DNA of 64,000 nucleotides from Pseudomonas grandcourensis (GTDB lineage Bacteria; Pseudomonadota; Gammaproteobacteria; Pseudomonadales; Pseudomonadaceae). The stretch is from positions 2,518,501 to 2,582,500 of the forward strand of contig NZ_CP150919.1 of assembly GCF_039909015.1 (NCBI RefSeq). The letters run 5' to 3'. This document shows positions 25,169 through 36,809 of the stretch, in pieces (position 1 is the stretch's first letter; every line of letters begins with the position of its first letter). The notes under the pieces were generated by a model. The model was not told the DNA's origin and made no database searches. It was given only the letters and a program-made list of their open reading frames with translations. The position numbers were made by a program, and so were the translations under genes.

Positions 25169-27418
25169 TCAGTTGGCGATCACCGGCACTGTCCGCACGG
25201 AACCTTGGGACGAGGTGATCGTGGCGGTCGGGTTCGCCGACGGTACGACCGTGGTGGTGTTGTTCACCGTCAACCGCCAGCGACCGTTCCCCGGTACGGT
25301 GGTGGTGCCCAGGGTGACCAGACCGGTCGGCGTGGTGACCTTGATGGTGATGGTGTTGCCGGTGGTCACCGATGATGTGCCGGCAAAGTCCCAGGTGAAT
25401 CGGTTATTGGAACGGGCACTCACCGTTGCGGTGGTCACTGCGAAGGTTTCTGCGGCAGGCCTTGGCGAGACCTGCACCGTGACCGTGGCCGGCGATGTCG
25501 ACTGGGCGCCGAAGCTGTCCCGGGCGATATAGGTGAAGGTCGTGGTGAAGGCCGTGGTGAAGGTGGCCGGTGGGGTATAGGTGAGCACCGTGCCGTTACT
25601 GCTGACGGTGCCGCGATTTGCCGGTGGCTGAGTGAAGCTGGCGACCGCGAGTGGCACATTGCCTTCTGGGTCGGTGTCGTTGGCCAGCACGTTGATTGGA
25701 ATCGCCACACCCAGTGTCGTGACGGCATCGGCGACTGCCACCGGAGGCCGGTTAGGCGCCACGGTAATGGTCACGGTTGCCGCTGTCGTGGAGGCCAGCC
25801 CTTTGATGTCTTGGGCCTTGTAGGTGAAGGTCGTGGTCAGCGGTGCGTTGACGACAGCGGGAGGGGTGTAGACCACTGCCGTAGTGCCGCTCAATGCCAC
25901 GCGGCCCTGGCCGGTGGCCGGTTGGGTCAGCGCGGTAATGCTCAACGGCGTATTGCCGTCCGGATCCCTGTCGTTGGCCAGCAGGTTGAGGGTGATCGGC
26001 ACGCCGAAGCTGGTGCTGCCGGTATCGGCGACGGAGATCGGTGCCTGGTTCGCACCGGTGTCCGGCGCCGTGCCCACGACCACCACGGGTTCGGTGTCGC
26101 TGCCGCCGGCGGCGGATTTGACCGTCACGGTTGCAGGGGGTTGGGACAGGTCAGCCACCGTCAGGCGTTGCAGGATTCCGGTTTTCGACAGCCGTCCGTA
26201 ACCCTGGGCGACCATGTCCGGTACCACCACTTCGTCCGTGGAGGTGGCCTCGATCAGCAGGCTGTGGTTGCTCCAGCTGTAACGGGCGGTCTGGATTTTC
26301 ACCACGTCCGAGAGCTTGCTCGACACCGCGGTCGGGCGGGTGGTCCCGGCGGGGTTGGTGGCGGTAACCACCACGACCGGCGGCACCGTTGCGTTGGCCA
26401 GCAGATGCTGGGCGAAGAACACGCCGTTGTTGTCGCTCACCATGTTGGTCTGGCAAGGCGACACAGGCGGGCCGGGGACCAGGGCGATGCTTTCGCGAAA
26501 GCACAGGGTCGAACCGTTGGCGGCTTTGGCAAACACTTCGACCCGGGTGGTGGCGCCGCCCGTGCCGGCTATGCGGCGGTAGGTGGCTCGGGTCAGGTCC
26601 ACCGCGGTTTGCGCGCGGTTGTCGAGCACCTTGCCGGACAGGGTGAAGAGGTTGGTCTGGAGGGTTCCGGCCGGACCCTGGATGCGCACGAAGTTGGTGT
26701 TGTTGGGGCTGCCGGTCACGGCTTCGGTGAGGTTGGGGTCGCCAACGAAGGTTTCGACGGCGCCGGTGTCCGGGTTCACCTCGGTGTAGGGGCCGTTGAC
26801 GCTACGCAGGAACGGCCCGATCGCACCGTTGACCGCACCGCTGAAAACCCCCGGCGCACCGATGCCGACGTCCCGGGTGATGTTGATCGCGCGACGGCCG
26901 GGGGTGGTGACGTTGACCGTTTCCACGCCATAGGGGTGGGTAATGGTGTAGGTCCCGGCAGTAGGAATGTTCACCCGCATACGAATCCGCGCGAAGCTGA
27001 TCTGGTCGCCATCGAGCGGGTTGCCACCGGCAAATGCAGCCTCGATCCCGGCGACATAGGCGTCCATGCCATAGCCGGCGGTGTTGTTGGGGATGCTGGT
27101 CTCGGCAAGGAACCAGAAGGCTTCGTCCGGCCAGTTATCCGGGAACACCATCGGCAGGGTGTCGTCGAAAATGCCCGGTGTCGGCAGCAGGGTGCACATG
27201 TAGGCCGGTGGCACGCTGGCGGCCACCCGCGAACTGGCGGCGCGTGACTGGCACAGCTCCATCGACAGTTGATTCTTGTCCTGATACCAGATCGGGAATT
27301 TCCCGGTGGCAAAGGTGTAAGGTCCGGGATCGACGGCGGCGAGTTGTGCCAAAGCACTGCCGGTCAGCGATAGAGTCAGTCCCAGGGCGTTGAGCGCCAG
27401 GCGTGGCCATTTGTTCAT
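25169..27418 (-). CDS. Secreted multidomain protein with Ig/cadherin-like repeats (paralogue A)
   Basis: 749 residues. A signal peptide of about 24 residues ends ALA. The N-terminal ~400 residues share an uncharacterised domain with the neighbouring gene: start A-V-D-P-G-P-Y, then W-Y-Q-D, P-G-I-F-D-D-T, D-G-D-Q-I-S-F-A-R-I-R, H-P-Y-G-V-E, G-P-F-L-R-S-V. The C-terminal half adds two cadherin-like repeats (N-D-x-D-P-x-G-N and F-T-Y-x-A-x-D), as in bacterial adhesins or surface proteins, and a final beta-rich module. No membrane anchor or sorting signal is seen. GGAGG before 27418 decides the start. Second gene of an operon with the paralogue 35 bp upstream. Confidence 0.83.
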   Translation of the reverse strand: MNKWPRLALNALGLTLSLTGSALAQLAAVDPGPYTFATGKFPIWYQDKNQLSMELCQSRAASSRVAASVPPAYMCTLLPTPGIFDDTLPMVFPDNWPDEAFWFLAETSIPNNTAGYGMDAYVAGIEAAFAGGNPLDGDQISFARIRMRVNIPTAGTYTITHPYGVETVNVTTPGRRAINITRDVGIGAPGVFSGAVNGAIGPFLRSVNGPYTEVNPDTGAVETFVGDPNLTEAVTGSPNNTNFVRIQGPAGTLQTNLFTLSGKVLDNRAQTAVDLTRATYRRIAGTGGATTRVEVFAKAANGSTLCFRESIALVPGPPVSPCQTNMVSDNNGVFFAQHLLANATVPPVVVVTATNPAGTTRPTAVSSKLSDVVKIQTARYSWSNHSLLIEATSTDEVVVPDMVAQGYGRLSKTGILQRLTVADLSQPPATVTVKSAAGGSDTEPVVVVGTAPDTGANQAPISVADTGSTSFGVPITLNLLANDRDPDGNTPLSITALTQPATGQGRVALSGTTAVVYTPPAVVNAPLTTTFTYKAQDIKGLASTTAATVTITVAPNRPPVAVADAVTTLGVAIPINVLANDTDPEGNVPLAVASFTQPPANRGTVSSNGTVLTYTPPATFTTAFTTTFTYIARDSFGAQSTSPATVTVQVSPRPAAETFAVTTATVSARSNNRFTWDFAGTSSVTTGNTITIKVTTPTGLVTLGTTTVPGNGRWRLTVNNTTTVVPSANPTATITSSQGSVRTVPVIAN

Positions 27419-27453
27419 GATGCCTCCTGATGAGGATCCGGGCATGTGGGCGT

Positions 27454-28800
27454 TCATTGCACGATGACCACTTCTTCGGTATCGCTGCCGCCATTGGAGG
27501 ACGACACACGAACCTGGGCTGGCGGAATCGGCGAGATGCCGGTGGCCAGGCTTTTCACGGCGCCGTCACCACTCAGGGCGCCGATGGCGATACCGGTGCC
27601 GGAGGTGGCGGTGAGCACCGGTGGCGACGTTTCATCGCTGGTCGAGGCCACGATGGTGATTTGCCCGGTGCTCAGGCTGTACTCGGCGCGTGAGATCGTC
27701 ACCAGGTCGGTCAGCGGCATGGGCAAGGTGGTCGGTGTGCTGCTGGCGATGGCCAGGTGGTTGTCGGCGGTCACCTGCAAGGTGCTCGGCAGCGTCGGAT
27801 TGTTCGGCGACTGCGCATACCAGTGGCCGGTAGTGTTCGCCTCGGTGAAGTTCAGCACCGGGTTGTTGCTGCCCAGGATCACGGTGGCCGGTGGCGGCGG
27901 GGCCAACACGAACACGTCCTGTTGGGCCACCGGGGCGCTGGTGCCGGCCTGTCGCGAGTAGGTGCTGCGCTCGGCGATCACCGGGGTCGGCCGGACCACC
28001 TTCGACAACTTGCCGGATACGGCGAAGAGGTTGGTGCGCAAGTCCAGGCCGTTGGGGCCTTCGATGCGCACGTAGTTGGTGTTGAACGGGCTGCCGGTGA
28101 CGGCTTCGGAGAGGTTCGGGTCGCCAACGAACTGTTCGGCCTGGCCAGTGCTCGGGTTGGTCTCGGTGTAGGGGCCGCTGACGCTGCGCAGAAACGGCCC
28201 GACGTCGCCCTTGAGCGCGCCGTTGTAGGTTTTTGGCGCACCGATGCCAATGTCCCGGGTCATGTTGATCGCCCGCCGGCCGGGGGTGTCGACGTTGAAC
28301 ACTTCGACGCCGTAGGGGTGGGTGATGACATAAGTGCCGGCGGTTGGCACGTCGATGCGAACACGGATACGGGCGAAGCTGATCTGGTCGCCCTCCAGTG
28401 GATCCCCACCACTGAAGGCTGCTTCGAGCGCCGAGACATAGGTCAGGTCGATGCCTCGGGCGGCATCGACGATGGTCGTTTCGCCTGTTGCCCAGAACGC
28501 TTCGTCGGGGAAATTGGTCGGGAAGACCAACGGTTGGGTGTCATCGAAAATGCCGGGATTAGGGATCAGCGAGCACATGTAAGTCGGGGCGCCCGGCGCG
28601 CTGGCAACTCTGGAACTGACAGCCTTCGATAAACACAGGTCAAGGGTTCGGCCGTGGCTGTCTTGATACCAGGCGGCGAAATTGCCATTGGCTGGCAGGT
28701 AGGGTCCGGGGTCTACGGCAAATAGCGCGGCCTGGGCAATACCTTGTGCTAGAGCGGTCACAACCAGGGCGGTCGCGGTTTTGCACAGTAACGGGTGCAT
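27454..28800 (-). CDS. Secreted protein (paralogue B), first gene of sigma-54 operon
   Basis: 448 residues with a signal peptide of about 24 residues ending AQA. Almost the whole mature chain aligns by eye with the N-terminal half of the neighbouring paralogue (A-V-D-P-G-P-Y, W-Y-Q-D, P-G-I-F-D-D-T, D-Q-I-S-F-A-R-I-R, H-P-Y-G-V-E, R-A-I-N-M-T-R-D-I-G-I-G-A-P, G-P-F-L-R-S-V-S-G-P-Y-T-E), but it lacks the cadherin-like repeats. Both end with a G-G-S-D-T-E-x-V-V-V motif at the matching place. Cysteines are few (three near the N-terminus). The function of the shared domain is not known to me. A -24/-12 promoter lies 60 bases upstream. Confidence 0.83.
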   Translation of the reverse strand: MHPLLCKTATALVVTALAQGIAQAALFAVDPGPYLPANGNFAAWYQDSHGRTLDLCLSKAVSSRVASAPGAPTYMCSLIPNPGIFDDTQPLVFPTNFPDEAFWATGETTIVDAARGIDLTYVSALEAAFSGGDPLEGDQISFARIRVRIDVPTAGTYVITHPYGVEVFNVDTPGRRAINMTRDIGIGAPKTYNGALKGDVGPFLRSVSGPYTETNPSTGQAEQFVGDPNLSEAVTGSPFNTNYVRIEGPNGLDLRTNLFAVSGKLSKVVRPTPVIAERSTYSRQAGTSAPVAQQDVFVLAPPPPATVILGSNNPVLNFTEANTTGHWYAQSPNNPTLPSTLQVTADNHLAIASSTPTTLPMPLTDLVTISRAEYSLSTGQITIVASTSDETSPPVLTATSGTGIAIGALSGDGAVKSLATGISPIPPAQVRVSSSNGGSDTEEVVIVQ

Positions 28801-28859
28801 GAGTATTCCCTCTGTCGAAGTACTTGCCCCTTGGGGTGGGCCAGTTGGCTTGGGTGTTC

Positions 28860-28875
28860 GGCAACTTCCATACCA
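28860..28875 (-). promoter_or_regulatory. Sigma-54 (-24/-12) promoter of the secreted-protein operon
   Basis: On the minus strand TGGTATGGAAGTTGCC matches the sigma-54 consensus TGGCACG-N4-TTGC, with the GG and GC doublets at the strict 12-base register. It would start transcription near 28849, leaving a leader of about 49 bases before the ATG at 28800. A 14-bp palindrome lies 98 bp upstream. Confidence 0.75.
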
Positions 28876-28964
28876 ATCGGCGAAAACGCCCGTGAGAGGC
28901 CCGCAGTAAAGGTGTTGGTGCAATCGCCGGCGGAACACCGGGACGATATGGAACGGGCAACTGT

Positions 28965-28978
28965 CCCCAACTTTGGGG
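28965..28978. promoter_or_regulatory. 14-bp palindrome, likely enhancer (UAS) for an NtrC-type activator
   Basis: CCCCAACTTTGGGG: two 6-bp arms CCCCAA/TTGGGG around a 2-bp centre. The centre is about 98 bp from the -24 element at 28873, a typical distance for a sigma-54 enhancer. The same palindrome recurs at 30544. Binding by the response regulator encoded at 33391 is inferred. Confidence 0.7.
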
Positions 28979-29080
28979 GTGACGGGGCCGCGGGGCGGGT
29001 GGGGTATCGCAGCCCCCAGGTTCGGGCAATCGGCCATGGCTGGGCTATAAACCTATAGGGGGTTTCCGGGAACGGTGTCC

Positions 29081-30526
29081 ATGAACACAATCGCCAAAGT
29101 ACTTGCGACCGACAGCGAAGTTCGCTTGAACACGCGCAAGGAGCCGTTCAATCTGCTGCGCTGGTTTTCACTCGTCAGCATGGCGGTGATCGGCACGGTG
29201 GCGGTGGCGCTGGGGGCGGTATCCACGCGGTTCGTGATTACCGAAAGCGTGCAGCGCGATGCGCTCCTGACCTCACAATTCATTCAGGCGATCGCCTCGG
29301 CCGAGGTGCGCCATGTGTCGATTCCCAACGTCAGGACCATGGGCGAGTTGCTCGACCCACGAAAAGACAAGGACTTTCCCGACATCGACCCGCTGTCCCG
29401 TGCCAGTGTCCGTGGTGAATTCCTCGACCATATCGAAAACTTGCCGGACGTGATCCTGGTCAACATCTATGCCCCCGACCGCATGGTGATCTGGTCGACC
29501 AACCCGGCCTTGATGGGCATCACGGTCCATGCCGATGAAGACCTCGAGCGGGCATTCAACGCCAGGACTTCGGTGTCGACCAGTTACCACGGTGTGGACA
29601 AAACCCGCATGGAGCAGAAGTTCCTGGAGCCACCCAAATACGCCTTCATCGAAAACTACATTCCCCTGTTCGACGCCGATGGCAGCACCGTCACGGCGAT
29701 GGTCGAGATCTACAAGGAACCGCAGGACCTGATCAACCGCATGGAGCGCGGCCTGGTGCTGATCTGGCTGGCGACCGCCCTGGGCGGCGGTCTGATTTAC
29801 CTGGGGCTGTACTGGATCGTGCGGCGAGCGGCGATCCTGCTGGCGATGCAGCAGAAGCAATTGATCACCAACGAAACCTTTGTGGCGCTGGGGGAGGTGT
29901 CCTCGGCGGTTGCCCACAGCCTGCGCAATCCGCTGGCGAACATTCGTTCAAGCGCCGAGCTGGCGATAGAGTTCGACAGCGGCCCGGCACACAGGAACAT
30001 CAACGACATCATTGGTCAGGTCGATCGCATGTCGACATGGGTACGGGAGTTGCTCCAGTCCCTGCGACCGCTCAATGACGAGGCGGAACCTGTGAACCTG
30101 GTGGCGGCCCTGCATGACAGCCTGATGGCTTACGAGCACCAGATCGGCAAGGCCAAGGTCAACGTGGTGTTCGAGCCGGACCAGACGCCCATGGTGCTGA
30201 GCCAGCACGTGCAACTGACCCAGATCCTCAACAGCCTGCTGTCAAATGCGGTGGAAGCCATGGACGGCGGCGGCACGCTGACCATCCGGATCGAACCGCG
30301 CGATGCCCAGCGCGTCAGTGTGAGGGTGAGCGATACCGGCAAAGGCATGAACGATGAACAGCGCACCATGGCCTTCCGGCCGTTCTTCACCACCAAGCAG
30401 GGCGGGCTGGGCGTCGGGCTGGTGCTGGTCAAGCGGATCATGGAGCGATTTGGCGGCGCGGTGGCCCTTGATAGCAGTGAAGGCGAGGGCACCACTGTGC
30501 ACCTTTCGTTTGTTCTGGCTCCCTGA
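29081..30526 (+). CDS. NtrB/ZraS-type membrane histidine kinase (copy 1)
   Basis: 481 residues. TM1 about 29-49, a periplasmic sensor domain about 50-225, and TM2 about 230-250. The phosphoacceptor helix has H279 in SSAVAHSLRNPLANIRSSAEL; N, G1 (DTGKGM) and G2 (GGLGVGLVLVKRIMERFGG) boxes follow. The kinase core is of the class that partners NtrC-like regulators. It is clearly a paralogue of the kinase at 31929 across its length, including the periplasmic part (R-T-M-G-E-L-L-D-P-R, W-S-T-N, I-E-N-Y-I-P-L-F). No regulator gene follows directly; the next response regulator is at 33391. No canonical promoter recognised upstream. Confidence 0.92.
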   Translation: MNTIAKVLATDSEVRLNTRKEPFNLLRWFSLVSMAVIGTVAVALGAVSTRFVITESVQRDALLTSQFIQAIASAEVRHVSIPNVRTMGELLDPRKDKDFPDIDPLSRASVRGEFLDHIENLPDVILVNIYAPDRMVIWSTNPALMGITVHADEDLERAFNARTSVSTSYHGVDKTRMEQKFLEPPKYAFIENYIPLFDADGSTVTAMVEIYKEPQDLINRMERGLVLIWLATALGGGLIYLGLYWIVRRAAILLAMQQKQLITNETFVALGEVSSAVAHSLRNPLANIRSSAELAIEFDSGPAHRNINDIIGQVDRMSTWVRELLQSLRPLNDEAEPVNLVAALHDSLMAYEHQIGKAKVNVVFEPDQTPMVLSQHVQLTQILNSLLSNAVEAMDGGGTLTIRIEPRDAQRVSVRVSDTGKGMNDEQRTMAFRPFFTTKQGGLGVGLVLVKRIMERFGGAVALDSSEGEGTTVHLSFVLAP

Positions 30527-30543
30527 AAACGGGGATGGACTAC

Positions 30544-30557
30544 CCCCAACATTGGGG
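30544..30557. promoter_or_regulatory. 14-bp palindrome, likely enhancer (UAS) for the SCO1 gene
   Basis: CCCCAACATTGGGG, the same arms as the site at 28965 with a different 2-bp centre. Its centre is 106 bp upstream of the -24 GG of the promoter at 30655. A second partial half-site (AATCCCCGG) follows at 30561. Confidence 0.7.
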
Positions 30558-30654
30558 ATCAATCCCCGGTCATCTCCTCGGTCATCGCACATTGATTTTG
30601 ATAAATCATTGTTTTGTCGAGCTTTAGTACGTCTTTATAAAAAGAACACATGAT

Positions 30655-30670
30655 TGGCGAGGTCCTTGCA
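30655..30670 (+). promoter_or_regulatory. Sigma-54 (-24/-12) promoter of the SCO1/cytochrome gene
   Basis: TGGCGAGGTCCTTGCA matches TGGCACG-N4-TTGCW with GG and GC in correct register. Transcription would begin near 30681, about 30 bases before the ATG at 30712. It is the best sigma-54 match noticed in the window. Confidence 0.82.
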
Positions 30671-30711
30671 AAACCACCGTCACCCCCTTCACCACATCGA
30701 GGCGGCTGGTG

Positions 30712-31827
30712 ATGGAAAATAAAGAGATGCATACACCGCGCTCACGAGCCTTGGGCATGCACCTGGTGCTGATGCTGGTGACCGGCTTGCTGGCCAGCCA
30801 GGTGCTGGTCGCCAGCCAGCCGACGTCGACGCCCGAACCTGCTCCGGCACCCACTGGTGAACCCGCGGTCGTTGAAGCCGTCACCCCGTGGGGTGCCGAC
30901 TATTTCCCCAACACCCCGCTGACCGACCAGGACGGACAGCCGCTGCATTTTTTCGATGACCTGATCAAAGACAAGGTGGTGGTGATCAACTTCATCTTCA
31001 CCTCGTGCAGCGACTCCTGCCCCCTGGAAACCGCGCGTCTGCGCCAGGTGCAGAAACTGCTGGGGGATCGGGTCGGCAAGGACATCTTCTTCTACTCCAT
31101 CAGCATCGACCCCTTGAGTGATACCCCCGAGGTGCTCAAGGCCTATGCGCAACGCTTCCAGGTCGGGCCCGGGTGGAAATTCCTCACCGGGGAGTTCGCC
31201 GAAGTCACCGACCTGCGCAAAAAGCTGGGGCTGTTCATCGAAGGCGTCGATAACGGGCGCAACAAGGACCATAACCTGAGCCTGATCGTCGGCAACCAGG
31301 CAACAGGCCGCTGGATGAAAGCCTCGCCGTTCGAGAACCCGTGGATTCTGGCCGACCAACTGGCCAATACCCTGCATAACTGGAAACAGCCCAGTGTGGA
31401 AGAAAGCTATGTCGATGCACCGGAAATCCGCCCGCCGAGCAATGGCGAAGAGCTGTTTCGCACCCGCTGCGCGTCTTGCCACAGCCTCGGTCCGCTGGAC
31501 GGGCAGGGCATCGGCCTGCGCAGCATCGGCCCAGACCTGATCGGCGTGACCTATCAGCGCGATCCGGCCTGGATCAACCGCTGGATCCGCGAACCTGACC
31601 GCATGCTCGCGGAAAAGGACCCGATTGCGATGGAACTGTTCGAGCGCTACAACAGGATCGCGATGCCCAACTTGCGGCTGGATCCACATTCCGCCCAGTC
31701 CCTCATCGATTTCCTGAAAGAAGAAACCGACCGTCAGCATCCGCCAGTGGCGCCATTGGCCAGTGGGAACGAGGAGCCCGAACGACATCATTCGGTCGCG
31801 CAACCCGAGTCACCCCGGGTGCAATAG
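30712..31827 (+). CDS. SCO1/SenC-cytochrome c fusion protein
   Basis: 371 residues. An N-terminal hydrophobic anchor or signal (about 15-35) is followed by a Pro/Ala-rich linker. A SCO1/SenC thioredoxin-like domain (about 60-230) has the copper ligands C99 and C103 (C-S-D-S-C) and H187 (K-D-H-N-L). A class I cytochrome c domain (about 240-345) has the haem motif C253-A-S-C256-H257 and a probable axial M318 in A-M-P-N-L. A Gln/Pro-rich tail closes it. SCO proteins deliver copper to cytochrome oxidase or act as redox sensors. No oxidase gene is nearby; placement between two sensor kinases behind a sigma-54 promoter suggests a sensory or stress role (inference). Confidence 0.92.
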   Translation: MENKEMHTPRSRALGMHLVLMLVTGLLASQVLVASQPTSTPEPAPAPTGEPAVVEAVTPWGADYFPNTPLTDQDGQPLHFFDDLIKDKVVVINFIFTSCSDSCPLETARLRQVQKLLGDRVGKDIFFYSISIDPLSDTPEVLKAYAQRFQVGPGWKFLTGEFAEVTDLRKKLGLFIEGVDNGRNKDHNLSLIVGNQATGRWMKASPFENPWILADQLANTLHNWKQPSVEESYVDAPEIRPPSNGEELFRTRCASCHSLGPLDGQGIGLRSIGPDLIGVTYQRDPAWINRWIREPDRMLAEKDPIAMELFERYNRIAMPNLRLDPHSAQSLIDFLKEETDRQHPPVAPLASGNEEPERHHSVAQPESPRVQ

Positions 31828-31928
31828 TGTCAAAAAAATTACGCGGGCCGGTCAAGGTTATCAATGCCACCTACACTGATCCTGAAAGCGGCTGAACAGG
31901 CTCGATTTCAAGCACCCAGGACACAGCC

Positions 31929-33422
31929 ATGCAGATACTCGAACAACAAAAAGTAGCTGCGCCGCAGGCCCCGGCAGCACAACGCAAGGGGTGGCGACCG
32001 CAGTTCAATTTGCTGCGCTGGTTCTCCCTGGCAAGCTTTCTGATCATCGCTGTGGTGGCATTGGGGCTGGGTTACATCTCCACGCGCTTTGTGGTCGATG
32101 AAAGTATCGAGCGTGATTCAATGCTGACCGCGCAGTTCATCCAGTCCATTGGCGAGGCCGAAATCCGGCATGCCGGCATTGTCCCGGGCCGGACCATGGG
32201 TGAAATGCTGGACCCGCGCATGGACGATTCCGACCCCGACGTCAACCCCGCATCCCGGGCCGCTGCGCGTGTTGAGTTTCTCGACCATGTGAGGCACCTG
32301 CCGGACATCCTGCTGGCGACGGTGTACGCCCTGGACCGCACCGTGGTCTGGTCGACCAACTCCGATTTGATCGGCGTGCGCATCGAAGGCGACTTTGAGC
32401 TGGACGAGTCGTTCGAAATGAAATCGCCGGTGTCCACCAGTTACCACGAAATCGATGAGCAGCGTCCCGAGCAACGCCTGCTGCGCGACCCGGAGTATCT
32501 GTTCGTCGAGAACTACATTCCGATGTTCAACGCCGACCGCAGCAAAGTGATTGCCATGGTGGAAATCTATAAAGAGCCGCTGGATCTGGTGGAGCGCATC
32601 CAGCGTGGCTTCAAGGCGATCTGGCTGGCCACGCTGATCGGCGGGGCGGCCATTTACCTGGGGCTGTTCTGGATCGTGCGACGCGCGGCGACGCTGTTGC
32701 AGAGCCAGCAGAAACAATTGATCGCCAACGAGACTTTTGTCGCCCTTGGCGAGATGTCTTCGGCGGTGGCCCACAGCTTGCGCAACCCGCTGGCCAATAT
32801 CCGTTCAAGCGCCGAACTGGCCCAGGACATTGCCAGCCAGACCGCACAGAAAAACATCGGCGACATCATCAGTCAGGTCGACCGCATGTCGCGTTGGGTT
32901 CGTGAACTGCTGGTGTCGTTGCGGCCGATGAATGACGACTGTGAAACGGTCGATCTGGTGCTGGCCCTCGAAGACACCCTGAGTGCCTTTGAGTCCCTGA
33001 TCAAGCGTTCGGATGTCGAAGTGCGTTTCTCCCCTGTCAGCGTGCCACCGGTCGTCAGCCAGCAGGTGCTGCTTACGCAAATACTCAATAGCCTGTTTGC
33101 CAATGCACTGGAAGCCATGCCCAAGGGTGGCGTGCTGACGATCGAGGTCGACTCCTCGGTGTCCGGCGACGTGAGAATGACATTGACCGACACGGGCAAG
33201 GGCATGTCCAAACAACAGCAGCAAATGGTCTTCAAGCCGTTTTTCACCACCAAGCAAGGTGGGTTGGGCGTGGGCCTGGCACTGGTCAAAAGAATAATGG
33301 AGCGGTTTGACGGCTCGGTCGAACTGACCAGCCGGGAGCAGGAAGGAACCCGTGTTTGTCTCAATTTCAAAGTGGCAACGGGAGGGGAATATGGAGCACA
33401 GCATTCTGCTGGTCGAGGATGA
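31929..33422 (+). CDS. NtrB/ZraS-type membrane histidine kinase (copy 2)
   Basis: 497 residues with the same architecture as the kinase at 29081: TM1 about 33-53, periplasmic domain about 54-228, TM2 about 235-253. H282 lies in SSAVAHSLRNPLANIRSSAEL, and the ATPase ends G-G-L-G-V-G-L-A-L-V-K-R-I-M-E-R-F. The two kinases keep the same periplasmic motifs but differ in charged residues, so they may read related but different signals. The 3' end overlaps the response regulator by 32 bp, making this copy the likely direct partner. AGGA precedes the ATG. Confidence 0.93.
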   Translation: MQILEQQKVAAPQAPAAQRKGWRPQFNLLRWFSLASFLIIAVVALGLGYISTRFVVDESIERDSMLTAQFIQSIGEAEIRHAGIVPGRTMGEMLDPRMDDSDPDVNPASRAAARVEFLDHVRHLPDILLATVYALDRTVVWSTNSDLIGVRIEGDFELDESFEMKSPVSTSYHEIDEQRPEQRLLRDPEYLFVENYIPMFNADRSKVIAMVEIYKEPLDLVERIQRGFKAIWLATLIGGAAIYLGLFWIVRRAATLLQSQQKQLIANETFVALGEMSSAVAHSLRNPLANIRSSAELAQDIASQTAQKNIGDIISQVDRMSRWVRELLVSLRPMNDDCETVDLVLALEDTLSAFESLIKRSDVEVRFSPVSVPPVVSQQVLLTQILNSLFANALEAMPKGGVLTIEVDSSVSGDVRMTLTDTGKGMSKQQQQMVFKPFFTTKQGGLGVGLALVKRIMERFDGSVELTSREQEGTRVCLNFKVATGGEYGAQHSAGRG

Positions 33423-34824
33423 CGAAATCCTCGCCGAGAATATTCAGACTTACCTGGAGCGCAAGGACTTCGAGGTGACCGTCTGCCACTCGGCTGAAGA
33501 TGCACTGGAGCAATTGGGTTCGTTCGCGCCTGACGTGGTGCTGACCGACAACTCGTTGCCGGGCATGAGTGGTCACGACCTGATCCAGAAGCTGCGCATC
33601 AGCGCGCCGGATCTGAAAGTGATCATGATGACCGGCTACGGCAATGTCGAAGATGCCGTGGTGGCGATGAAAGAGGGCGCCTTTCACTACGTCACCAAAC
33701 CGGTGGCCCTGCCAGAGCTCAAGCTGCTGCTGGACAAGGCCCTGGCCACCGACCGCATGGAGCGCACGCTGTCGTTTTACCAGGAGCGTGAGGCCCAGAA
33801 GTCGGGGGTGCAGGCACTGATTGGCGAGTCGGCGCCGATGGCGTACCTCAAAGGCACCATCACCCAGTTGCTCGACGCCGAGCGGCGCATGGCCAACAGC
33901 GACCTGCCGCCGGTGCTGGTGGAAGGCGAGACGGGTACCGGCAAAGAGTTGGTGGCCAGGGCCTTGCACTTCGACGGCCCGCGCGCCAAAGGCCCGTTCA
34001 TTGAATTCAACTGTGCTTCGATCCCGTCCAATCTGGTGGAATCGGAACTGTTCGGCCACGAGAAGGGCGCCTTCACCGACGCCAAGGAACGTCGCATGGG
34101 GCTGGTGGAAGCGGCCGATGGCGGCACGCTGTTCCTCGATGAAATCGGTGAAATGGACCTGCTGCTGCAAGCCAAGCTGCTGAAACTGCTGGAAGACCGG
34201 ACCATTCGCCGGGTCGGTTCGGTGAAGGAGCGCAAGGTCGATCTGCGGGTGATCAGCGCCACCAACTGCAATCTCGAACAGATGGTCCAGCAAGGCAAGT
34301 TCCGCCGCGACCTGTTCTTCCGCCTGCGCATCATTTCCATCAAGGTGCCGCGCCTGTATGCCCGTGGCGCCGATATCCTGCTGCTGGCCCGGCACTTCCT
34401 GGCGCTACATGGCAAACGCTACGGCAAGCCGAACCTGCATTTCAGCGACCAGGCCGAAGATTTGCTGCTCAGCTACAGCTGGCCGGGCAACGTGCGCGAA
34501 TTGCGCAACATGCTGGAGCAAACCGTGTTGCTGGCACAAAGCGACACCATCGCCGTCCATCAGTTGAACGTCTGCCTGAGCCTGATGGATGAGCCACCGA
34601 TGTTTCATCACGAGCCGCCACATTTCAGCGAACAGCGGGCGTCCTTCAATGGCAGCGATTCCATGAACCTGCCGGAAGTGGAGCGCGACATGGTGCGCAA
34701 GATGCTCGACAAGACCGACTGGAACGTCACCAAATCGGCACGCTTGCTGGGTCTGAGCCGTGACATGTTGCGCTACCGGATCGAAAAACTCGGCCTCGCC
34801 CGTCCGGACAAACGTCAGTGGTAA
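33391..34824 (+). CDS. NtrC-type sigma-54-dependent response regulator with GAFTDA loop
   Basis: 477 residues. The receiver domain (1-120) has E-D-D near residue 8, phosphorylated D53 (L-T-D-N-S-L-P-G) and a T-K-P lysine. The AAA+ domain (about 145-390) has Walker A G179-E-T-G-T-G-K185, Walker B T-L-F-L-D-E-I-G, and arginine-finger region F-R-R-D-L-F-F-R-L. The sigma-54 contact loop reads GAFTDA (residues 226-231) instead of GAFTGA. A Fis-type HTH (about 435-475) reads N-V-T-K-S-A-R-L-L-G-L-S-R-D-M-L. GGAGGGG decides the start at 33391; the longer frame lies inside the kinase gene. It is the obvious candidate to bind the CCCCAA-N2-TTGGGG sites. Confidence 0.94.
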   Translation: MEHSILLVEDDEILAENIQTYLERKDFEVTVCHSAEDALEQLGSFAPDVVLTDNSLPGMSGHDLIQKLRISAPDLKVIMMTGYGNVEDAVVAMKEGAFHYVTKPVALPELKLLLDKALATDRMERTLSFYQEREAQKSGVQALIGESAPMAYLKGTITQLLDAERRMANSDLPPVLVEGETGTGKELVARALHFDGPRAKGPFIEFNCASIPSNLVESELFGHEKGAFTDAKERRMGLVEAADGGTLFLDEIGEMDLLLQAKLLKLLEDRTIRRVGSVKERKVDLRVISATNCNLEQMVQQGKFRRDLFFRLRIISIKVPRLYARGADILLLARHFLALHGKRYGKPNLHFSDQAEDLLLSYSWPGNVRELRNMLEQTVLLAQSDTIAVHQLNVCLSLMDEPPMFHHEPPHFSEQRASFNGSDSMNLPEVERDMVRKMLDKTDWNVTKSARLLGLSRDMLRYRIEKLGLARPDKRQW

Positions 34825-35205
34825 TCACTGCAACACCGGGCCCTGCGTCAGGCAGGACATCATGCAACCGGAATTTTCGACTTCCTGGTTCACGTAGACG
34901 CCACGCTCCGGATCGTAGGAGCGGATAAACACCCGAACCGTGGCGTCGGCCACCGTGGGCAGGCGCGAGTCCGAGAACACGTGCTCGCTGGAAACCGGGA
35001 TGAAATCCCCGGGGGCGGTCGGGATGTACGAGCCCGGCGGGATGATGTTCATGGACGGGGGGGCGGGGTGCGCGAAGGGTTGGTCGGCGCCGTAATAGTT
35101 GAATTCGCTGCTGTAGTTGGTGGTGTTTGGCATGTCGTCGGCGTGGGCGACAGCGGAGGCGCCAAGGCAGAGGGCAAGCAACAGCGTCAGGTCGGTCTTT
35201 TTCAT
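34825..35205 (-). CDS. Small secreted protein of unknown function
   Basis: 126 residues with a clear signal peptide (MKKTDLTLLLALCLGASAVAHA). The mature part is rich in Pro, Tyr and Ser, with P-P-G-S-Y-I-P-T-A-P-G-D-F-I-P-V, and ends with two cysteines in C-M-M-S-C. No domain is recognised. Its stop codon abuts the stop of the response regulator. Position suggests that it might belong to the same regulon, but I find neither a -24/-12 box nor the palindrome upstream. Confidence 0.75.
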   Translation of the reverse strand: MKKTDLTLLLALCLGASAVAHADDMPNTTNYSSEFNYYGADQPFAHPAPPSMNIIPPGSYIPTAPGDFIPVSSEHVFSDSRLPTVADATVRVFIRSYDPERGVYVNQEVENSGCMMSCLTQGPVLQ

Positions 35206-36204: not shown

Positions 36205-36513
36205 TTAGAGATTTGAGTGATTGACGGTGTGCCCTGGCTGCGCGCAGAGATCTATGCCCAAGGCATGAATGACCTTCAGGACTGTATCGAAACGTGGTTT
36301 TGCTCCCGGGGCGAAGGCTTTGTAGAGGCTTTCGCGACCCATTCCCGAGTCTTTGGCAATCTGTGTCATACCACGGGCTTTAACCACATAGCCGATAGCG
36401 CGAAGAAACTCCTCATTGTCACCGTCTGCCAGTACCTGAGACAGGTACTCGCTAATGGCTTCATCACTGTCGAGCAGGGCCGCCATGTCGAAATTCGTCA
36501 AAGTCTGGCTCAT
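36205..36513 (-). CDS. Addiction-module antidote protein (HigA-like, XRE fold)
   Basis: 102 residues with a Cro/XRE-like HTH in R-G-M-T-Q-I-A-K-D-S-G-M-G-R-E-S-L-Y-K-A-F (about 47-67), and P-R-F-D-T-V-L-K-V-I-H-A-L-G, typical of the HI_1420-type antidotes. It lies 2 bp after the toxin gene in the same transcript, with a strong AAAGGAGG site. It would neutralise the toxin and repress the operon. Confidence 0.88.
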   Translation of the reverse strand: MSQTLTNFDMAALLDSDEAISEYLSQVLADGDNEEFLRAIGYVVKARGMTQIAKDSGMGRESLYKAFAPGAKPRFDTVLKVIHALGIDLCAQPGHTVNHSNL

Positions 36514-36515
36514 GG

Positions 36516-36809
36516 TTAAACCTCCTTTGCCATTTTTTTTGCGCGTTTGATATCGGCGTTTTGAGTTGATTTGTCACCACCGGCCAGCAGGACAATGACG
36601 ACACCACCTCGCATCGTGAAGTAAACCCGGTATCCGGCACCAACGTCCACGCGCATTTCAGAAACTCCATCACCGACCGGTTTGTTATCGCCGAGATTAC
36701 CCGCAGATGCACGGTCAATGCGACGAGCTATAGCTAGCTTGGCCCGCAAATCGCGAACTGAGGCGTGCCATGCTGCGAAAGTGGTGGTTTGCTGGATAAG
36801 ATAATTCAT
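36516..36809 (-). CDS. RelE/ParE-superfamily toxin (HigB-like, addiction killer protein)
   Basis: 97 residues of the HI_1419-type killer family: F-A-A-W-H-A-S-V-R-D-L-R-A-K near the start, then G-D-N-K-P-V-G-D-G-V-S-E-M-R-V-D-V-G-A-G-Y-R-V-Y-F and V-I-V-L-L-A-G-G-D-K-S-T-Q. These are the usual ParE/RelE-fold landmarks. First gene of the toxin-antitoxin pair, with toxin before antidote as in higBA modules. Local base composition is somewhat lower in GC than the neighbours, consistent with transfer. Confidence 0.88.
   Translation of the reverse strand: MNYLIQQTTTFAAWHASVRDLRAKLAIARRIDRASAGNLGDNKPVGDGVSEMRVDVGAGYRVYFTMRGGVVIVLLAGGDKSTQNADIKRAKKMAKEV

Follow-up and report, generated by a model that had tools for sequence, protein, structure and literature searches.

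The locus described here is very probably the MnxS1-MnxS2-MnxR two-component system of Mn(II) oxidation, as it occurs in a Pseudomonas that has neither mnxG nor the mcoA gene of the locus; the assignment is based on gene families, gene order and levels of protein identity. It lies in a stretch of 64,000 nucleotides (the window) of a Pseudomonas grandcourensis genome that forms a single contig of 6,763,687 bases (6.76 Mb). Strains of P. jessenii and P. fluorescens are among the best-matching named Pseudomonas loci when relatives of the regulator are sought. All genes of the locus have open reading frames in the ORF listing, and the features are as follows.

25169-27418, minus strand: secreted protein A, 749 aa (Pfam, BLASTP)
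27454-28800, minus strand: secreted protein B, 448 aa (ORF; Pfam and NCBIfam searches)
28860-28875, minus strand: sigma-54 site of B-A, TGGTATGGAAGTTGCC (motif score)
28965-28978, no strand: palindrome CCCCAACTTTGGGG, likely MnxR site of B-A (motif search)
29081-30526, plus strand: sensor kinase K1, likely MnxS1 (HisKA and HATPase_c)
30544-30557, no strand: palindrome CCCCAACATTGGGG, likely MnxR site of the former mcoA promoter (motif search)
30655-30670, plus strand: sigma-54 site TGGCGAGGTCCTTGCA of the former mcoA promoter, now before SCO1 (motif score)
30709-31827, plus strand: SCO1/SenC protein with a C-terminal cytochrome c domain (Pfam)
30724-30728, plus strand: approximate in-frame deletion junction, where relatives have mcoA (BLASTN against locus L035)
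31929-33422, plus strand: sensor kinase K2, likely MnxS2 (HisKA and HATPase_c)
33391-34824, plus strand: sigma-54-dependent response regulator (RR), likely MnxR (receiver, AAA+ domain with GAFTDA, Fis-type HTH)
34825-35205, minus strand: small protein X with a signal-like N-terminus (ORF)

A preliminary description of this DNA had presented the kinases that flank the SCO1-cytochrome c gene as paralogues, the second overlapping the regulator gene, and the divergently encoded secreted proteins as a paralogous pair. Indeed, K1 and K2 are 61% identical over K2 residues 23-483, the K2 and regulator genes overlap by 32 bp, and B and A are 50% identical over 456 columns (BLASTP). The ORF of small protein X, absent from that description, recurs in 75 of the 80 related loci examined (the best 80 of 266 relatives). 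Further along the window, at 36205-36809, an HI1420-like addiction-module antidote gene adjoins a 97-aa ORF of toxin-like size.

The MnxS1/MnxS2/MnxR system of Pseudomonas putida GB-1 was reportedly described by Geszvain and Tebo in 2010. The regulator of the window has a receiver domain, a sigma-54 interaction domain and a Fis-type DNA-binding domain (Pfam), which is the architecture of an Mnx-type regulator. NtrC, AtoS/AtoC and ZraS/ZraR are alike in the domain architecture of the regulator and the kinase cores, but the window proteins do not reach their curated NCBIfam score cut-offs: the regulator scores 391.5 bits against a cut-off of 558.6 for ntrC, 386.4 against 714 for AtoC and 317.4 against 760 for ZraR, and for K1, K2 and the regulator all of the 25 best NCBIfam models score below their cut-offs. 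With regard to sigma-54 contact, the usual motif is GAFTGA; GAFTDA is present in 112 and GAYTDA in seven of the 120 listed relatives of the regulator (119 in all), and the remaining one has no such motif.

According to the text sections of the papers cited here, MnxS1, MnxS2 and MnxR are essential for Mn oxidation in P. putida GB-1 (PMC11409713), and the GB-1 cluster consists of two sensor kinases and one sigma-54 response regulator (PMC11409713, PMC8218464, PMC11930936), as in the window. In GB-1, mnxS1, mnxS2 and mnxR are given as one putative operon with mcoA elsewhere, whereas in the window the SCO1-cytochrome c gene lies between the kinases. The same text section of PMC11409713 gives the order mnxS1-mcoA-SCO1-mnxS2-mnxR for Pseudomonas sp. 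MS-1 and DSV-1, in which the kinases, the SCO1 gene and the regulator have the order and orientation seen in the window; these strains differ from the window in having mcoA, and the B-A pair is not mentioned in that section. An mcoA gene between the kinases is not a defining trait of Mnx, given that GB-1 has none there, and the order kinase-SCO1-kinase-regulator is that of the window. The preliminary description knew of no described system with this composition; on the printed order, the families and their arrangement are those of MnxS1/MnxS2/MnxR, with mcoA added (PMC11409713).

Sequenced relatives link the window to the published strains. P. psychrophila DSM 17535 (L090), the species nearest MS-1 and DSV-1, has A, B, K1, mcoA, SCO, K2 and RR, which is the window order plus mcoA and, from mnxS1 on, the order printed for those strains; its mnxG operon, of six genes, lies about 24 kb from mcoA. 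Four more distant loci in which K1, K2 and RR are adjacent (L176-L179) are 64-65% (K1), 65-66% (K2) and 79-80% (RR) identical to the window, levels that resemble the values of 61, 62 and 77% printed for MnxS1, MnxS2 and MnxR of GB-1 and MS-1 (text section of PMC11409713); orthology rests on gene order and these identity levels. The expectation that the five-family neighbourhood would be kept in relatives holds: among the best 80 of 266 regulator relatives, 76 loci have both kinases, with mcoA and SCO1 between them in 53, SCO1 only in 17 and neither in six.

The window genome seems to have lost both of the oxidase genes that usually accompany this system. The window aligns to the related locus L035 on both sides of the L035 mcoA, with the junction in frame (BLASTN), and near 30724-30728 the sequence passes from the mcoA promoter, leader and first codons into SCO1. 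Since mcoA was deleted in frame, the promoter before SCO1 is the mcoA promoter. In a protein search that included positive genomes, and that replaced a Cu-oxidase_2 search in which MnxG did not show, mnxG was present in 18 of 24 genomes, with no match in the window genome or in G149, G150, G151, G153 and G160. A remnant of the mnxG operon persists at C1 4.266-4.269 Mb, consisting of a SCO gene, a cut second SCO gene and a periplasmic-binding/cytochrome gene, preceded by TGGCACGCGGATTGCT and a CCCC-N6-GGGG palindrome. Genes for a secretin and a type II secretion ATPase adjoin this mnxG site (L171:6990-12915, L173:1-5609), with close homologues in P. psychrophila. Xcm-type secretion is said to have been linked to the Mn-oxidising factor by de Vrind in 2003, and the genes by the mnxG site are possibly a Gsp-related export route for that factor.

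Three McoA-family genes, MCO1, MCO2 and MCO3, lie outside the locus in the window genome. MCO1 (1128 aa) and MCO2 (1130 aa) are 90% identical and both have sigma-54 sites that score 15 of 17. At MCO1 the sigma-54 site is preceded, at a distance of 131 bp, by a CCCC-N6-GGGG palindrome; the palindrome of MCO2 is imperfect. MCO3 is a 1009-aa frame with an unsure start and a weak sigma-54 site. We considered whether MCO3 (C1:3236470) might be the locus mcoA in a new place, and rejected this: it is 70-74% identical to 15 locus McoA proteins that are 77-97% identical to one another, and stands apart from them in the tree, where it forms a long branch. None of the paralogues looks, from such comparisons, like a relocated locus mcoA. 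A PAS-GGDEF-EAL gene lies between MCO1 and MCO2 (L117:7772-10393); the GB-1 mcoA operon includes a diguanylate cyclase/phosphodiesterase gene (text section of PMC11409713). The coverage of 80% given there for GB-1 mcoA hints, without proving it, that GB-1 McoA belongs to the long type.

Control of the oxidases by sigma-54 is not new, since sigma-54 sites, together with IHF sites, have been predicted at the GB-1 mnxG and mcoA promoters, which respond to Mn (PMC11930936, in part); in MS-1, an rpoN insertion abolished Mn oxidation (PMC11409713, text section). The preliminary description had found two sigma-54 promoters, each with the same palindrome about 100 bp upstream, and our analysis agrees: CCCCAA-N2-TTGGGG lies 97 bp upstream of the sigma-54 site of SCO1 and 89 bp upstream of that of B. 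We scored sites on our own scale, with a maximum of 17, against what we take to be the sigma-54 consensus and its weights, TGGCACG-N4-TTGCA. The site before SCO1, TGGCGAGGTCCTTGCA, scores 15, and that before B, TGGTATGGAAGTTGCC, which has TGGT rather than TGGC, scores 14.

The exact palindrome, CCCCAANNTTGGGG, has two copies in the 6,763,687-base genome, both at the locus, against one in a backward control; with one mismatch there are 11 sites against 13. Across 149 Pseudomonas genomes, the exact palindrome has 27 sites, fewer than the 50 of the backward control (hand count), yet 14 of them are found no further than 40 kb from mnxS2, where 0.12 would be expected at random if relatedness is ignored; thus, it is the placement of the palindrome, not its number, that exceeds chance. 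It occurs in 15 of 48 genomes with mnx and eight of 101 without. As a mark of the whole regulon the exact form was rejected as too strict, being present in just those 15 of 48 genomes; the promoters are better matched by CCCC-N6-GGG. Downstream of K1, 87 of 88 loci have a sigma-54 site with a score of 13.5 or more out of 17, the exception being L043, in which 2.4 kb separate K1 from the next match. CCCC-N6-GGG lies 60-135 bp upstream of the post-K1 site in 84 of these 87 loci (not in L079, L176 and L180), compared to a mean of 0.45 and a maximum of four in 500 shuffles that kept base composition only and ignored relatedness.

Support at the other promoters is less uniform. Before B, sigma-54 matches were found in 59 of 77 loci, of which 57 were accepted; L098 and L100 were set aside because the site is 14 bp from the start. 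The 20 loci of 77 with no acceptable sigma-54 site before B, which include both P. koreensis loci (L069, L099), argue against sigma-54 control of B in every lineage. B-A is well apart from mnxS2 in at least 13 of the 48 genomes with mnx, and both promoter elements precede B in all six separated genomes checked (G057, G102, G103, G104, G110, G127), in which the pair is about 25-400 kb away or on another contig. For mnxG, a motif match lies close upstream in four of four genomes, which were chosen since the motif search had matched there; upstream of P. psychrophila mnxG there is a sigma-54-like site, with no CCC-N8-GGG match in the scanned stretch. The combined motif pattern is unspecific: among the matches listed, it is present in 114 of 149 genomes, many of them without mnxS2, with means of 3.17 per genome with mnx and 1.23 per genome without (relatedness ignored). 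G005 carries the pattern in 18 copies of one repeated element, which these means exclude.

Taken together, CCCC-N6-GGG upstream of sigma-54 sites is the likely MnxR site; it precedes mcoA/SCO1, in most loci B-A as well, and in some cases mnxG. It seems new: a literature search on MnxR, with subscription papers mostly outside its coverage, returned no described MnxR binding site. Pairs of the two elements also occur at other places in the window genome. One, at L188:2960-3083 (C1:6230959-6231082), is flanked by a di-haem CCP/MauG-like gene and a 591-aa gene that has no Pfam family, and points to the latter, as in G046; in G019, G111 and G100, a similar pair precedes the di-haem gene. Another, at L187:3058-3189 (C1:3225057-3225188), has no evident downstream target gene.

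The SCO1-cytochrome c protein matches PF02630 with 69.8 bits (cut-off 22.8) and PF00034 with 23.7 bits (cut-off 21.3), and 79 of 80 copies examined have both a CxxxC and a CxxCH motif. Among loci without mcoA, we looked for McoA-type genes elsewhere in the genome for 12 of the 18 that keep SCO1 (the window included) and five of the six that lack it. Where SCO1 is kept, such a gene is present in 11 of 12 genomes (G166 has none, and the copy in G158 holds a stop), compared to none of the five genomes where SCO1 is absent, the match in G164 covering the C-terminal repeat domain only (Fisher p 0.001, relatedness ignored). All five tested genomes without SCO1 and McoA have mnxG. The difference between 11 of 12 and none of five ties the SCO1-cytochrome c to McoA-type oxidases, and from these presence patterns the protein appears to track them, an association that seems new.

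Of 149 Pseudomonas genomes, 48 have both secreted protein B and mnxS2, and the other 101 have neither (thresholds of 1e-20 and 1e-60; relatedness ignored). B is also present in all 69 loci with more than 1.8 kb before K1, among the best 80 of 266 relatives; the copy in G049 has three stops. The N-terminal part of A, paralogous to B, is followed by cadherin/Big_9 repeats (Pfam) and a C-terminal region common to the long McoA paralogues, 47-52% identical to MCO1 and MCO2 (51.7% over 201 aa for the MCO2 C-terminus; BLASTP). B has no Pfam or NCBIfam family at E <= 0.001 and no PDB sequence match, and its predicted structure has a mean pLDDT of 31.9 from one sequence and 40.3 from 20 sequences; in the 20-sequence prediction, only blocks within the last ~80 residues reach at least 70. 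In P. psychrophila, two curlin-repeat (CsgB/CsgA-like) genes follow A (L174:13416-15386), as do genes in G057 that resemble them by eye (L194:9224-11159); none was seen beside A in the window. The co-occurrence of B with mnxS2 and the likeness of the A and McoA C-termini are evidence, though not proof, that the pair has a role in Mn oxidation. A literature search found no description of such a role.

We propose that the two membrane kinases would answer a Mn-related signal, their published role, and phosphorylate MnxR, which would bind CCCC-N6-GGG about 60-135 bp upstream of sigma-54 promoters. MnxR would thereby activate the former mcoA promoter, and with it SCO1-cytochrome c and perhaps mnxS2-mnxR behind it; the B-A secreted pair; the mnxG operon, reduced here to a remnant; and probably some McoA paralogues outside the locus. 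SCO1-cytochrome c may load copper into McoA-type oxidases or carry electrons for them, and B and A may be exported surface partners, A having a C-terminal region in common with the long McoA paralogues; for A and B, we consider these roles about evenly poised between right and wrong. We infer that the strain may still oxidise Mn. The preliminary description had pictured one closed circuit. A sigma-54 circuit in which two kinases feed one activator, whose likely targets are the SCO1 and secreted-protein promoters, looks real. It does not look new; nor does it look closed, since the published outputs are Mn oxidase genes, and McoA paralogues and further candidate sites lie elsewhere.

A system that had lost mnxG and the locus mcoA might instead control nothing important and be on its way out. 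That mnxG was not found and the locus mcoA is deleted would fit such decay, as would looser constraint on two genes. In nine pairs of related genomes, dN/dS of the six genes (A, B, K1, SCO1, K2 and RR) never reaches 0.3; it is 0.15-0.26 for K1 in the five pairs without mnxG, compared to 0.06-0.13 in the four others, and 0.17-0.29 compared to 0.06-0.12 for SCO1. However, the pairs without mnxG also have lower dS, which can raise the ratio, and constraint on A, B, K2 and RR is no looser there than in the other pairs, with every value below 0.21. All frames are open, the promoter elements are kept, and three McoA paralogues are present, two of them with sigma-54 sites scoring 15 of 17; we regard decay as very unlikely. 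We give even less credence to the idea, close to the picture in the preliminary description, that the system no longer serves Mn oxidation and now handles something else, for instance copper or redox stress, its outputs being SCO1-cytochrome c and the secreted pair. SCO1-cytochrome c is indeed the first gene of its promoter in the window genome, and neither of the usual Mn oxidase genes is at its usual place, but SCO1 without a locus mcoA is kept alongside a McoA-type gene elsewhere (11 of 12) and gone from the five tested genomes without any.

Within the Mnx assignment, our fuller proposal is tentative, and we judge it slightly more apt to fail than to hold: that Mn(II) oxidation in Pseudomonas has an obligate component so far unrecognised, the B-A pair, which MnxR and sigma-54 control directly through CCCC-N6-GGG and which partners the oxidases at the surface; that a C-terminal docking domain is common to A and the extended McoA paralogues; and that, after the loss of both usual oxidases, the switch passed to duplicated, C-terminally extended McoA genes. 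Genomes that have lost both mnxG and the locus mcoA offer a natural experiment on the function of the switch in their absence. The palindrome and the list of candidate targets make the MnxR regulon directly testable, and bear on the finding of MnxR targets and on bacterial Mn biomineralisation. Lastly, co-occurrence in 48 of 48 genomes points to two unstudied secreted proteins as possible missing parts of Mn oxidation, a pair that bears on how the oxidases are held at the cell surface.
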